NCBI RefSeq assembly: GCF_001644605.1
Contig: NZ_CP011388.1
Span: 1,535,001-1,599,000 of the forward strand
Direction: 5' to 3'
DNA: 64,000 bases
Origin: Paenibacillus swuensis
Lineage (GTDB): Bacteria; Bacillota; Bacilli; Paenibacillales; DY6
This document shows, one piece after another, positions 5,549-55,150 of the stretch. The notes under the pieces were generated by a model. That model saw only the letters and a list, made by a program, of their open reading frames with translations. It was not told the origin of the DNA and made no database searches. Position numbers and translations under genes: made by a program. Numbering within the stretch: position 1 is the first letter of the stretch; each line of letters begins with the position of its first letter.

Positions 5549-5797
5549 CTACATCGTAATGAATTGATTGGCTCGCTTCTTCAGCGTAGTGGATGAAATA
5601 GGTGAGTAATACACTCTGTCATGCGTAACCACGATTGACTTCGCTTCCTCTTCACCGATGGTTTCCATCTGTTTGTTGCTTTCGGCAAAATCAATAAACT
5701 GCTTGGAGATTTTCGAGGAACTCTCGATCATAATGTCAAAAATAGCGATTAGTTCCGAAGAACGAATGATCTTTTCGCCGCCCAAATGGATAAACAC
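5549..5797 (-). CDS. remB: Extracellular matrix regulator RemB (DUF370 family, YaaB)
   Basis: A small 82-residue protein beginning VFIHLGGEKIIRSSELIAIF, typical of the RemA/RemB (DUF370) family. Its paralogue RemA is a DNA-binding regulator of biofilm matrix genes, while RemB has a less defined role. The gene occupies the recF-gyrB interval exactly as yaaB does in Bacillus. The GTG at 5797 is chosen because GGAGGGGAG precedes it by about six bases; earlier in-frame codons overlap that site. It is co-directional with recF, with only 29 bases between them. Confidence 0.93.
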   Translation of the reverse strand: MFIHLGGEKIIRSSELIAIFDIMIESSSKISKQFIDFAESNKQMETIGEEEAKSIVVTHDRVYYSPISSTTLKKRANQFITM

Positions 5798-11936: not shown

Positions 11937-12553
11937 TAATTGTCGTTCAAGGAAAGACGATTGAAGCTGCGAAACTCGCGGGAATCCAACAATTGAACGT
12001 TACCGAGGATCGGGTAACCGTCCGTGTGCTGGAGCAACCCACCAAGGGTTTCCTTGGTTTCGGCGCCAAGGCCGCGAAGGTGGAGCTTACGCTTCTGCCT
12101 GAGCCTCCGGATCCTGTTCATGAAGCGATGACATTCCTTCAGAATGTCACTCGCGCCATGCAACTGGACGTTTCCTTAGAACGACAAGAATCTAAAGAAG
12201 GCATCACGTTGAATGTAGTCGGTCAAGATTTGGGCATGCTAATCGGCCGCAGAGGGCAGACGCTGGATGCGCTGCAGTACCTGGTCAACATTGTGGGCAA
12301 CCGATATGCCGCGAAGCATTTCCGCATTACATTGGACGCGGAGAATTTTCGTGACCGGCGTAAGCAAACATTGGAAGAGCTGTCGCAGCGGTTAGCCAAC
12401 AGGGTCATTAAATCGAGGCGCGAGGTCGTGCTTGAACCGATGCCGTCCCAGGAACGCAAGATTATTCATGCGCAGCTCCAGAATCATTCTAAAGTGAAAA
12501 CATACAGCAAAGGCGACGAACCTAATCGCCGGGTTGTAATCGCAATACGATAA
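11933..12553 (+). CDS. khpB: RNA-binding protein KhpB/Jag
   Basis: A 206-residue protein with an N-terminal Jag domain (starting MIIVVQGKTIEAAKLAG), a KH-type RNA-binding domain with GMLIGRRGQTLDALQYL, and a C-terminal R3H domain ending RRVVIAIR. KhpB is an RNA chaperone acting with KhpA and linked to cell elongation and division. It overlaps the yidC stop by four bases (ATGA), so the two are likely translated together. A strong terminator follows. Confidence 0.95.
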   Translation: MIIVVQGKTIEAAKLAGIQQLNVTEDRVTVRVLEQPTKGFLGFGAKAAKVELTLLPEPPDPVHEAMTFLQNVTRAMQLDVSLERQESKEGITLNVVGQDLGMLIGRRGQTLDALQYLVNIVGNRYAAKHFRITLDAENFRDRRKQTLEELSQRLANRVIKSRREVVLEPMPSQERKIIHAQLQNHSKVKTYSKGDEPNRRVVIAIR

Positions 12554-50433: not shown

Positions 50434-51534
50434 TTAAGAAAGTAATTTTTTCCAATCAGAGTAATTGTTATTACCCATTCTTTCAAGTAAACGAACATTT
50501 AGATCATATTTATTTTTTTTGAAGTTTTTATTATTAGAATAGATAATTTTTTTCAAAGGTTTTTTTAATTTAGACAACTTTTCGTATGATCCTAGTACCT
50601 TTAAAGTATCATAAAGATTTAATACAGCGGCATGCTTAGTATGTTTTTTTCCTCCATTTACTGTTACAGTTCTGATTTTTTGAGCAGGAGACATATTCAA
50701 TTTATTTACTAGTATAGGCAAAATCCTAAATGTAGATGCAGTGGAAAATCGATTTATTAAAGAAAAATGAGCACATTTGTTACGTAACTCTCTGATAATA
50801 TCTAAAGAATTTAAGAATAAATCCCTATCTGAGTAATTTAATCCAAAATCTTTTAAAACTTTTTCTAATACTACTTTTCTTGAATAATGACAAAATCTTT
50901 GAAGTGTGCCAAAATCAAATGTTTCGATTGCTACCCAAAGAGGGACAACAATTTGTCTACTATCCTTTTCATACAGATTACAACCTGCTGGTGGTGTGTA
51001 TTGATTAGAAGGAGTGGAGAATATATTAATATCGATAAAATCATTGTTTTTGACCAGAAAATATAGAAATTGAGGTTTGAATAAAAAGAAATCATTGAAT
51101 TCATCTACAACTTTTCTGTTTTGATCATGATACAAGGGATATTTATCCCCTAAAGTTGTTTTTAAGTCTATGTAGTTTTGTTTATTTGTGTACTGCATAG
51201 TGTTCTCTGGTGTCCTACAATAGGACTCAGTAAAATGTCGTGAAATTGATGTTTTTAATTTAGTTTCGAAATCATGTAAAATTGAAGTAACATGATTAGT
51301 AAGAATTTTGTCAAATTTGTGCAATCTTACGAAGTCATCAAATGATGCAGTATCATAATTTTTTACCTTATCTCCTGGTTTAACAAGCAGCAAATCTTCA
51401 ATTCCATTGATTACATTAAAGTAGTTATTTTTATTAACGTAATCAATAAAGAAATCTTTGTTTTTTATAGTTAGTCCCCTAGTGATTAACAGGTTATGCT
51501 GATCCAGTGTAGATTTAAATGGCTTAATCGGCAC
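50434..51534 (-). CDS. Abi-family protein (Abi_2/AbiF-like, HEPN motif)
   Basis: A 366-residue AT-rich gene. The start IKPFKSTLDQHNLLITRGL, the FDKILTNHVTSILHDFETKLKTSI region and the motif RNKCAH in RELRNKCAHFSLI near residue 252 match the Abi_2 abortive-infection family. Its R-x4-H motif is that of HEPN ribonucleases. Such proteins are thought to stop phage growth by cleaving RNA. The start is GTG 51534 after AAGGAGGGG. Low GC compared with rlmH implies transfer. The structured RNA lies downstream, in the manner of a toxin-RNA or regulator pair. Phage specificity is unknown. Confidence 0.85.
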   Translation of the reverse strand: MPIKPFKSTLDQHNLLITRGLTIKNKDFFIDYVNKNNYFNVINGIEDLLLVKPGDKVKNYDTASFDDFVRLHKFDKILTNHVTSILHDFETKLKTSISRHFTESYCRTPENTMQYTNKQNYIDLKTTLGDKYPLYHDQNRKVVDEFNDFFLFKPQFLYFLVKNNDFIDINIFSTPSNQYTPPAGCNLYEKDSRQIVVPLWVAIETFDFGTLQRFCHYSRKVVLEKVLKDFGLNYSDRDLFLNSLDIIRELRNKCAHFSLINRFSTASTFRILPILVNKLNMSPAQKIRTVTVNGGKKHTKHAAVLNLYDTLKVLGSYEKLSKLKKPLKKIIYSNNKNFKKNKYDLNVRLLERMGNNNYSDWKKLLS

Positions 51535-52627: not shown

Positions 52628-53509
52628 ATGGTAAAAGTGTTTAAGAATGAATCGGGTAGAACGCAAGTGCTGAGTTCATATAATCGGATCCTTGAAATGT
52701 GGTCGATAGATTTCCAAGAACATGATGTGAAAAGCAAGTATGGTACGACCTATTGTATTACTTCAGGAAGTAGGGGAAACCCTCCGCTTCTATTATTTCA
52801 TGGGGTTGGAGATAACTCTGCGGTCATGTGGGTCTTAAATATTAAGGAATTATCCAGGCATTTTTACTGCATATCCGTTGATACTATTGGGGGTCCTGGA
52901 AAGAGTATTCCAAATGAGAATTACAAGAAGAACTCGTTTAACCAAACCGATTGGATTAATGAAATTGTGGAACATTTCAATATTGAAAACTTTAATATAG
53001 CGGGCGTATCCAATGGTGCATATATGGCATACAACTATACGACTGTTAATAGCGAAAGAGTTAATAAAGTAGTTTGTATGGAGGGAGGAATGGTTACTAA
53101 GCCAATTAAAACCATGATACAAACCCTACTTTTGATGTTTCCTGAAATACTGATTCCAACGCATCAAAACATGCTTAAAATTATGAAGAAACTAAGTTCG
53201 CCTAACTCCGATATTTTTGATAAATACCCCTCAATTGTGGAGCATCTAGTTCTCTTAATGAAAAATCATAATCAGCAAGCAATGTTTGTTCATAAACTCG
53301 AGAAATATGATAAAGAAAAAGGTGCAGCTATAAGAAACAAGCTTTATTTTCTAATAGCAGAACATAGAATTAATATTAGAAAAGATTTCATAAATATTCT
53401 GGATAGTGACGGATTCCGCTATAAAGTGATTCCTAACGCGGGGCATGGCATCAACCATGAACAGCCAGATATAATTAATAATGAAATTATTAGATTTTTG
53501 AAAAAGTAA
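52628..53509 (+). CDS. Alpha/beta hydrolase
   Basis: A 293-residue hydrolase. LLLFHGVGDNSAVMW holds the oxyanion region, the nucleophile elbow is GVSNGAYMA (G-x-S-x-G), and the catalytic His lies in VIPNAGHGINHEQP near the C-terminus. No signal peptide is visible, so it is cytoplasmic. The GGGAGGAAATGA upstream supplies the ribosome site. It forms an operon with the TetR gene, so its substrate may be related to the inducing ligand. Low GC suggests transfer with the Abi gene. Confidence 0.92.
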   Translation: MVKVFKNESGRTQVLSSYNRILEMWSIDFQEHDVKSKYGTTYCITSGSRGNPPLLLFHGVGDNSAVMWVLNIKELSRHFYCISVDTIGGPGKSIPNENYKKNSFNQTDWINEIVEHFNIENFNIAGVSNGAYMAYNYTTVNSERVNKVVCMEGGMVTKPIKTMIQTLLLMFPEILIPTHQNMLKIMKKLSSPNSDIFDKYPSIVEHLVLLMKNHNQQAMFVHKLEKYDKEKGAAIRNKLYFLIAEHRINIRKDFINILDSDGFRYKVIPNAGHGINHEQPDIINNEIIRFLKK

Positions 53510-53523
53510 ATATGATTTACCAT

Positions 53524-54011
53524 AGAATTTCCTGAACCGTACCATAAGTAAGAGCATATTTTTTTGTTAATTCCTCTGGGGGGTTGTATAAGTGGCTCAC
53601 AAAAGATGAACTGTAACCCTTTTTGTGGACACGTGCGCCGGCCTTACAGTGTCGAGAGGTAAAATGTTTATGAATGCGTTGGTAGTCGTTCTTATCTGAA
53701 TTATTCACGTTCTTGCCTCACAGCTTCTGCTTTCATCCAACGATAATACCCACTACGACTGACTTCAGCAACATCACTTAAATGACTCGTTAGACCTTTT
53801 AAGTTGTATTTACGAGTGGTAACCTAGCTCAAAGGTTTCTGAAGGGGTTAACGTGTGGGCTTCACCTGCCTTTCTAGATCGTCGAGCTTTTTAGGAACTC
53901 ATTCTCCATCTCCAACAGCTTAATCTTAGCCTCGGCGCGCTTTAACATCTCTTCCGTAGTTACCTCCTTTGAGGATGGTCTACCTTTACTTCCCTTGCCT
54001 CTGCGGTCCAT
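53524..54011 (-). pseudogene. IS3-family transposase remnant (orfA/orfB fragments)
   Basis: Reading the minus strand from 54011: a short OrfA-like stretch (MDRRGKGSKGRPSSK, then LLEMENEFLKK after a one-base slip, then LDDLERQVKP). This is followed by an OrfB N-terminal stretch (RKYNLKGLTSHLSDVAEVSRS and GYYRWMKAEAVRQERE) that ends in a stop. A further shifted piece carries KAGARVHKKG. Several frame breaks and the missing DDE catalytic region show it is a decayed fragment. It lies between the hydrolase and the truncated genes and probably marks an old insertion. Confidence 0.8.
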
Positions 54012-54038
54012 TAATAATCCCTACTCTCCATGTTCAAT

Positions 54039-54062
54039 CCGCGCGCTGCGCGGCTTTTTTTA
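54039..54062 (+). terminator. Terminator-like hairpin
   Basis: CCGCGC (54039-54044) pairs with GCGCGG (54048-54053) around GCT, followed by C and eight T residues. It is oriented on the plus strand, beyond the IS3 remnant. Confidence 0.7.
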
Positions 54063-54181
54063 TTAGCAAAATCTATTTTAACCATCAAATTATTTTATTT
54101 ATTATACTCTAGACAGTCCTGATAGTATGATATATTATCCAATTGAGGAATTTATTATATAGCGAAGCGAGGGATTTGCCA

Positions 54182-54514
54182 ATGAACCAAATGACTATGG
54201 GACAAACCAACAAAAGCTTCACCAAAGCCGGATTGCTCAGAATACGTGAAGTGTTGGCAGGGCATGTCGACTCCGGGAAGATTCCTGGGCTTGTCGCCTT
54301 GGTTAGCCGCAACGGGGAAACTCACGTCGAAGCGTTGGGAACCATGCAGCATGATGGTGGCGCACCGATGCGCAGGGACACGATCTTCCGCATGGCATCC
54401 ACATCCAAACCGGTCGCAATCGCGCCGGCTTTAATCCTGCTCGATGAGTGCAAGCTGCGAATGGACGATCTTGTCGAACAATGGCTGCCCGGCGTAGTAC
54501 CGGCAGGCGTATAA
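54182..54514 (+). pseudogene. Serine hydrolase (beta-lactamase family) N-terminal fragment
   Basis: The frame begins MNQMTMGQTNKSFTKAGLL after a GAGGGA site. It carries the beta-lactamase/transpeptidase-like start, with KIPGLVALVSRNGE, and the SxxK motif in FRMASTSKPVAIAPALILLD, which contains the nucleophile Ser. It stops at 54514, soon after VEQWLPGV, so about three quarters of the usual protein is missing. The remaining part meets a fragment of an unrelated gene on the opposite strand. Probably non-functional. Confidence 0.85.
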
Positions 54515-54942
54515 TTCCATTTTATCGAGCCGTTCGACTGCAGGGACAATACCCAACCTGCGTTGGACCCGCTGTACCAATTTTTATTGCTGATAATGGC
54601 AGGGTCACCGGTAACACCAGGAGATTGGATCCAAAAAGATACGGTAAAATCGGTTGTCGTTCCGAAGGCAGTTGCAGAGGTTTTTCCCAGATCAAGGTAT
54701 TGGCCGGCTTGTGTAAACTCCAGCGCTTTTCCGATCCGTCCGTTTACATACTGCGGATTACCGATAGCGGTAACCGGGACGGCATTTACAGAACTGTCTG
54801 TTACGTTGCCTTCCATTTTAAGCTCCAACGAAGGATTGGCCGGCAAGGGGCCGTTAGCGTGCGTGACCGCGACGTTTTGCCATGTCACTCCGCCTAGCAG
54901 CACCGCAGCTGACATTACCGTAATCGCTAACTTCTTGAACAT
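54515..54942 (-). pseudogene. Secreted LamG-domain protein, N-terminal fragment
   Basis: From ATG 54942 (AAGGAG ribosome site) the product has a signal peptide (MFKKLAITVMSAAVLLGGVT) cleaved near THA, then a concanavalin/LamG-like region with LELKMEGNVTDSSVNAVPVT, GRIGKALEFTQAGQYLDLG and FTVSFWIQSPG. Recognisable sequence ends around SIKWNYTPAG. Beyond that the frame runs antisense through the serine hydrolase fragment to 54322 and is meaningless. The remaining catalytic or binding modules are missing, so I treat it as truncated. Confidence 0.8.
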
Positions 54943-55106
54943 TAATTTCACTCCTTGATTTGTTTTTGCCAACTGAAACCACATAAATGGACTTGTTACC
55001 ATGATTATTATGTGGATTTAGTTTGACTAGTTTCATCCTACCGCTCATTCATTAACGTAACATCAAGGCAAAGTAAATAATTGATGTAATTTTCACGAGG
55101 CCGTAA

Positions 55107-55150
55107 AAAAGCCATGGTCAACGGATTTTCTTCCGCTGACCATGGCTTTT
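55107..55150 (-). terminator. Terminator of the glycosyltransferase gene (bidirectional)
   Basis: AAAAGCCATGGTCA and TGACCATGGCTTTT form a 14-bp perfect stem, with inner CGG/CCG. T-runs on both strands allow termination in either direction. Confidence 0.9.

Follow-up and report, generated by a model that had tools for sequence, protein, structure and literature searches.

The window considered here is a stretch of 64,000 nucleotides of the Paenibacillus swuensis chromosome (C1:1535001-1599000 of a single record of 5,012,599 bases), and positions are counted from its first base unless a record coordinate is stated. Between bases 54491 and 54492 (junction A), the 5' parts of two unrelated genes face each other and abut with zero spacer: a serine hydrolase gene on the plus strand (S) and, on the minus strand, the gene of a LamG-phosphodiesterase (L). 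The two halves of a gene are designated by the suffixes N and C, and the features are collected in Table 1.

Table 1. Coordinates of the features in the window, composition of the three junctions, and length of the segments that they delimit.
Feature	Location	Strand	Description
dnaA	8522..9877	-	PF00308 match, ORF, adjoining skew sign change
Degraded IS3-like transposase scrap (presumed)	53700..54015 (approximate; ~53.7-54.02 kb)	-	Motifs by eye, frameshifted translations
S_N (serine-hydrolase 5' half)	54182..54491	+	103 codons and one base; PF00144
Junction A	54491..54492	.	S_N(+) joined to L_N(-); no microhomology seen; GC skew sign change in 10-kb bins
L_N (signal peptide and first part of LamG domain, LamG-phosphodiesterase)	54492..54942	-	Start at 54942; relatives
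Junction B			F_C(-) joined to S_C(+)
Junction C			F_N(+) joined to L_C(+)
Segment 0	Junction C to junction A through the record start		3,515,502 bp
Segment 1	Junction A to junction B		553,920 bp
Segment 2	Junction B to junction C		943,177 bp

The plus-strand frame at 54182-54514 matched the N-terminus of PF00144 serine hydrolases in Pfam (E 3e-18). At the DNA level, similarity to an intact paralogue of the same genome starts upstream of the gene, at 54163, and ends at 54491, and it ends at this same base in all three intact copies compared (the own-genome paralogue, 79% identical, and one copy in each of two relatives, 77-78% identical); a weaker fourth match (70% over 113 bases) stops before 54491. 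The match of L_N to the Pfam LamG model was weak (26.2 bits, under the cut-off of 27.6), and its similarity to relatives reaches residue 148-150 of 150, that is, up to junction A, past which the tail of the minus-strand ORF is the antisense of the serine hydrolase. A search with the L N-half covered 392 genomes of the order, of which 27, the own genome included, matched at E <= 1e-6; among the matches listed, the seven closest ones in other genomes are open frames of 1099-1421 aa. The search for L in named genomes returned two distant MAG loci only. The relatives listed in the S_N and L_N searches are all related at the level of the order, and no member of the same genus or family is among them. 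An earlier note, made from the letters of this DNA, had described a serine hydrolase N-terminus and a signal-bearing LamG N-terminus losing sequence at a common break at about 54.51 kb; both truncations are borne out by these comparisons, as is the common junction, which lies about 20 bp from the position then proposed.

In Pfam scans of five L relatives, LamG was accompanied by a Phosphodiest/Sulfatase domain, with a C-terminus of cohesin-dockerin type in three and of SLH type in two, and with Big_2 in four. The gene L of this genome (halves of 150 and 363 aa; L066:7594-8685) ends after the phosphodiesterase domain and is without the C-terminal Big_2, cohesin-dockerin or SLH parts of these relatives. 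L_N also matched PF07953, the lectin-like receptor-binding domain of clostridial neurotoxins, weakly (20.4 bits against a cut-off of 23.8; window 54322-54942, in the LamG stretch), as did four of the five L relatives scanned; we read this as a common lectin-like fold and not as a toxin.

The missing 3' halves were searched in the own genome using the C-terminal part of the S paralogue and the C-terminal part of an L relative as queries. S_C was found on the plus strand at C1 ~2143412-2144333, 73% identical to the C-half of the paralogue, the other matches being the paralogue itself and three weak ones. L_C starts at C1:3086593, also on the plus strand, with 44% identity over its first part and 29% over a second piece; according to Pfam it completes the LamG domain and carries PF01663. 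The remaining nine matches of this second search, the top scorer included, cover only the query region past residue 700, which holds Big_2, cohesin and dockerin, and they lie in other proteins. What the earlier note had proposed to look for exists on both counts: full-length versions of S and L in relatives, and both missing halves in the genome itself. The intact S paralogue lies at C1:2202959 (420 aa); for the L N-half, no further copy turned up in the own genome.

Inspection of the sequence and ORFs at the two new sites revealed that each missing half has been joined to half of another gene, F, which encodes a GHL6-type glycoside-hydrolase-like protein. The C-half of F lies left of S_C on the minus strand (junction B), and its N-half left of L_C on the plus strand (junction C). 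In Pfam, the GHL6 domain fell in the N-half and a beta-galactosidase-trimerisation-like match in the C-half; the N-half matched in 141 of the 296 genomes searched (E <= 1e-20), and a relative of F is present elsewhere in the own genome (C1:4839848, 689 aa, 68% identity). S_C is adjoined by a TetR-type regulator (L065:8539-9243) that, by eye, is close to the one beside intact S in a relative (L047:4743-5429), which hints at a conserved pair.

The halves were then positioned on intact relatives. S_N ends at residue 109 of the paralogue frame and S_C, counted from its V, starts at 116; of this six-residue step, five residues were read by eye from the codons just within junction B, and the remaining one is divided between A and B. 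The same step recurs in three of three relatives, so that the S halves abut once the junction B codons are read in this way. F was compared with 13 relatives, whose open frames span 657-711 aa: a gap of exactly two relative residues separates the halves in 12 of them, and the thirteenth agrees when two unaligned residues are counted; as inferred from these relatives, about four nucleotides are missing from F, despite the two-residue gap, because part of one codon remains. L_N ends at residue 192 of one relative (L041) and L_C starts at 193, an abutment found in four of five relatives; in the fifth, the start of L_C did not align. Compared with relatives, no residue is missing from either S or L, and four extra nucleotides are present at junction C. 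All six halves are open in frame, which indicates little decay.

The six ends are each used once: three ancestral adjacencies were lost and three new ones gained. The junctions cut the circular chromosome into three segments, whose present order is segment 0, segment 1, segment 2; S, F and L become whole again in the order segment 0, segment 2, inverted segment 1, which closes into one circle. Since 8 of the 15 possible pairings of six ends give a single circle, this closure alone is weak evidence, and the argument therefore rests on the fit of the halves and on the replication skew.

By the logic of the junctions, segment 1, and only segment 1, is predicted to run against replication. The replication origin, marked by dnaA, lies some 44.6 kb to the left of junction A. 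Both gene and origin are inside the window, so the record has not been rotated to start at dnaA, and its ends fall in an ORF of 189 aa. GC skew was computed in 90 bins of 10 kb from sampled stretches, two of which (at 3.90-3.99 Mb) stand outside the following classes. Skew was positive in 1 of 15 bins left of the origin, in 4 of 4 from the origin to junction A, in 0 of 24 in segment 1, in 19 of 19 in segment 2 (the two flanks of segment 1 thus giving 23 of 23), in 12 of 15 from junction C to 3.9 Mb, and in 0 of 11 from 3.99 Mb to the record end. The three exceptions right of junction C are one weakly negative bin just beside it and two past the apparent terminus. One segment is thus inverted relative to its neighbours and to replication, and the sign changes at A and again at B but stays the same across C, matching the prediction. 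At the 4-kb scale the signal is noisier, the two window bins wholly in segment 1 being one negative and one weakly positive (0.018). Where segment 1 was scanned, the 16S, 23S and 13 tRNA genes that were found all lie on the minus strand, which is head-on to replication in the present order (L107:2838-9148). A 16S search of the own genome returned one copy, a count that is not usable because the 1.02 Mb of own sequence read contains two runs of 5,000 N. A chance pairing of unrelated gene fragments is discarded, as three genes fit to within one or two residues and the segment for which an inversion is predicted has the wrong-way skew.

We therefore consider that junction A is probably one of the three products of a three-break rearrangement (an inverted transposition). 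The 553,920-bp segment has probably been inverted and moved past the 943,177-bp segment within one replichore; as both segments belong to a single arm, the replichores keep their lengths. Breaks inside the three unrelated genes S, F and L would have produced six ends, all of which were joined again but with the wrong partners; a segment of 554 kb would thereby have been flipped and relocated, and the three genes each cut in two. The rearrangement appears to be real, to have occurred as one event and to be recent.

Break-point sequences were compared using ancestral bases inferred from relatives. Microhomology amounts to 0 bp at A and about 1 bp at B, and C carries a 4-nt insert, so that the junctions show little or no microhomology and small indels, as expected of non-homologous end joining (NHEJ). 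Comparison of the 10-kb surroundings of the three junctions detected at the breaks no repeat or IS of the kind that repeat-mediated recombination would call for. The only strong similarity in these surroundings is an element of 42 nt common to B and C (86% identity, inverted, E 3e-7; L065 about 5692-5733 and L066 about 12164-12205), located kilobases from both breaks and possibly a dispersed terminator or repeat.

The strongest rival is an assembly error, in which the true chromosome would have intact S, F and L and the record would present three segments in wrong order and orientation. Such a mis-join predicts the skew anomaly and the intact halves equally well, and the head-on rRNA operon would then cost nothing. 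Inversion of 554 kb including an rRNA operon against replication should be costly; it is odd for a natural isolate and counts against our preferred reading. The two N runs, which may be masks or gaps, would add weight to an assembly error if they are gaps; the window and the regions surrounding B and C are free of N. Mis-joins usually occur at repeats longer than the reads, whereas here the longest word common to the sites within 40 nt is 9 nt. An error would moreover need three exact, reciprocal and nearly lossless joins in sequence that is unique as far as compared, plus four extra bases at C, which is unlike a concatenation of contigs. The record starts inside the largest segment (segment 0), and its ends close exactly, in frame and without overlap, inside the 189-aa ORF; for these reasons it does not consist of three contigs placed end to end. 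On balance, an assembly error is unlikely, though it is to be kept in mind.

Two successive inversions, the first between S and L and the second between F and the S_C/L_C junction created by the first, give the same map. The segment order, worked by hand from the junctions, fits this scenario, and the available part of a study on E. coli (PMC5372343) states that a pair of inversions can stand for one inverted transposition. Breakpoint reuse is attributed there to repeats; here, the second inversion would have had to hit the first junction within a few bases, and no repeat or clear recombination site is present at this point. For want of such a repeat at the common junction, we regard two inversions as improbable.

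Also evaluated was a sequence-directed recombination, in which a transposon, a nuclease or a site-specific recombinase would have worked on three sites related to one another. ACCGGCAGG is common to S and L, 7-8 nt beyond the break, and a 9-mer is common to S and F on the other side, 28 and 19 nt from the breaks; two 9-nt words are common to the flanks lost and gained at A and B. When word statistics were computed by two measures on flanks of six different lengths, from 15 to 100 nt, P(sum) ranged from 0.002 to 0.51, and in the all-pairs test the mean had a P of 0.03 and the maximum one of 0.11; the P of 0.0005 obtained with 40-nt flanks concerns six comparisons picked after seeing the all-pairs result. 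Against such a mechanism, the statistical signal weakens when the flank length is changed or the alignment is gapped, ACCGGCAGG is common here (14 occurrences in 0.79 Mb against 6 expected uniformly), no common core was seen by eye at the three break points, and we noticed no gene for a recombinase in the ORF lists of the B and C surroundings. Sequence-directed recombination is therefore very improbable, and short homology near the breaks may nevertheless have played a role.

The geometry of junction A alone would fit a deletion between convergent genes that removed both 3' ends, but neither 3' half is missing from the genome, where both abut the lost points, and this explanation can be set aside with near certainty. 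A lone inversion is likewise insufficient, because S_C would then adjoin L_C; the two halves are not side by side at a second junction: 0.94 Mb separates them, and the partner of each is an F half. From the earlier note, which held a single deletion or inversion to be the simplest cause, what stands is that the locus is a rearrangement junction and that an inversion forms part of the event. Insertion of an island in L, with the remainder of L on its far side, is also out, since L_C is 1.5 Mb away.

The degraded transposase remnant left of S_N, which we take to be IS3-like from its transposase motif, had been suspected in that note of having supplied the break. It lies some 480 bp from junction A, a DNA search of the own genome returned no second copy, and nothing similar is present at B or C, so that this role was rejected; a 45-aa piece of it had no Pfam match. 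A Paenibacillus plasmid (H20) matches window 53737-53945 at 67%. In total, 21 plasmid records match window 53500-55150, and among the 20 listed, 19 match the serine-hydrolase part only and one (H20) the IS-like part only, the LamG part being matched by none of these 20. About 3 kb left of junction A lies an Abi_2-family gene (PF07751, E 1e-23; window 50434-51534), which may be a mobile defence gene.

Returning to the three-break rearrangement, the genome carries ku and a presumed ligase partner. Two ku genes scored above the Pfam cut-off (loci L081 and L082), one of which adjoins an ATP-dependent ligase gene (302 aa, recognised by eye); beside the second, no ligase was recognised by eye among the ORFs of at least 120 aa in the surrounding 3.5 kb. 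Ku and ligase would have sealed the ends by NHEJ, possibly as the cell grew out of dormancy. In B. subtilis, repair by Ku/LigD has been studied in stationary phase, during spore germination and with purified proteins (PMC3656841, as presented in its available part). The case described here resembles that system in that a ku gene adjoins an ATP-dependent ligase gene and in that the junctions are blunt-like with a small indel; it differs in that the B. subtilis study, in its available part, is not about three-way misjoining, and the ligase here is short (302 aa). Given the junction features, the lack of a repeat spanning the breaks, the ku/ligase pair and the link to stationary phase and spores in B. 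subtilis, three breaks sealed by end joining is the best-supported mechanism, the use of Ku itself being deduced, and a recent three-break misrepair by end joining is our best reading. More tentatively, and with somewhat less than an even chance in our estimate, the event may represent chromosome shattering in a minimal bacterial form: three double-strand breaks made at the same time, e.g. in a dormant spore, would have been religated by Ku and ligase in the wrong order with almost no loss. An rRNA operon and a tRNA cluster would have been turned head-on to replication with the 554 kb, and the cell would have remained viable and been sequenced before the skew or the broken genes decayed.

Events of this kind are known. 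In the inverted transposition described in E. coli (PMC5372343, available part), a block changes both place and orientation through three breakpoints within one circular chromosome, as proposed here; the ends carried three copies of a repeat, whereas in P. swuensis the breaks fall in three unrelated genes and no repeat is found at the break points. Among Bacillus-Clostridium inversions, origin-symmetric ones are described as dominant (PMC5850607, available part), and large within-species inversions with well-defined breakpoints as flanked by repeats (PMC9584773, available part). With these origin-centred inversions, the present case shares a large-scale reordering of the chromosome, junction A being 45 kb from dnaA; unlike them, it does not straddle the origin-terminus axis but stays inside one replichore, whose length is kept, and places 554 kb against replication. 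In Salmonella, the experimentally confirmed spontaneous rearrangements all had short repeats at their end points, with junction signatures that were otherwise unremarkable (PMC3411829, available part), and for Streptomyces the hypothesis has been put forward that NHEJ genes are linked to the rate of rearrangement (PMC5124664, available part). Titles and abstract openings covering part of the papers matching bacterial three-break or shattering events, Paenibacillus rearrangements, NHEJ and inversions report no such event, and a repeat-free, base-exact, reciprocal case involving three genes in one replichore did not turn up in this partial coverage.

The approach also provides a simple screen, which consists in searching genomes for gene halves that pair reciprocally across the chromosome and in confirming the candidates by the sign of the skew. 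If the present case were an artefact, this same gene-half screen would serve as a cheap check for mis-joined closed genomes. If it is true, it constitutes a rare base-level record of repeat-free reshuffling of a bacterial chromosome, and would suggest that multi-break end joining can reshape the chromosomes of Ku-bearing bacteria.
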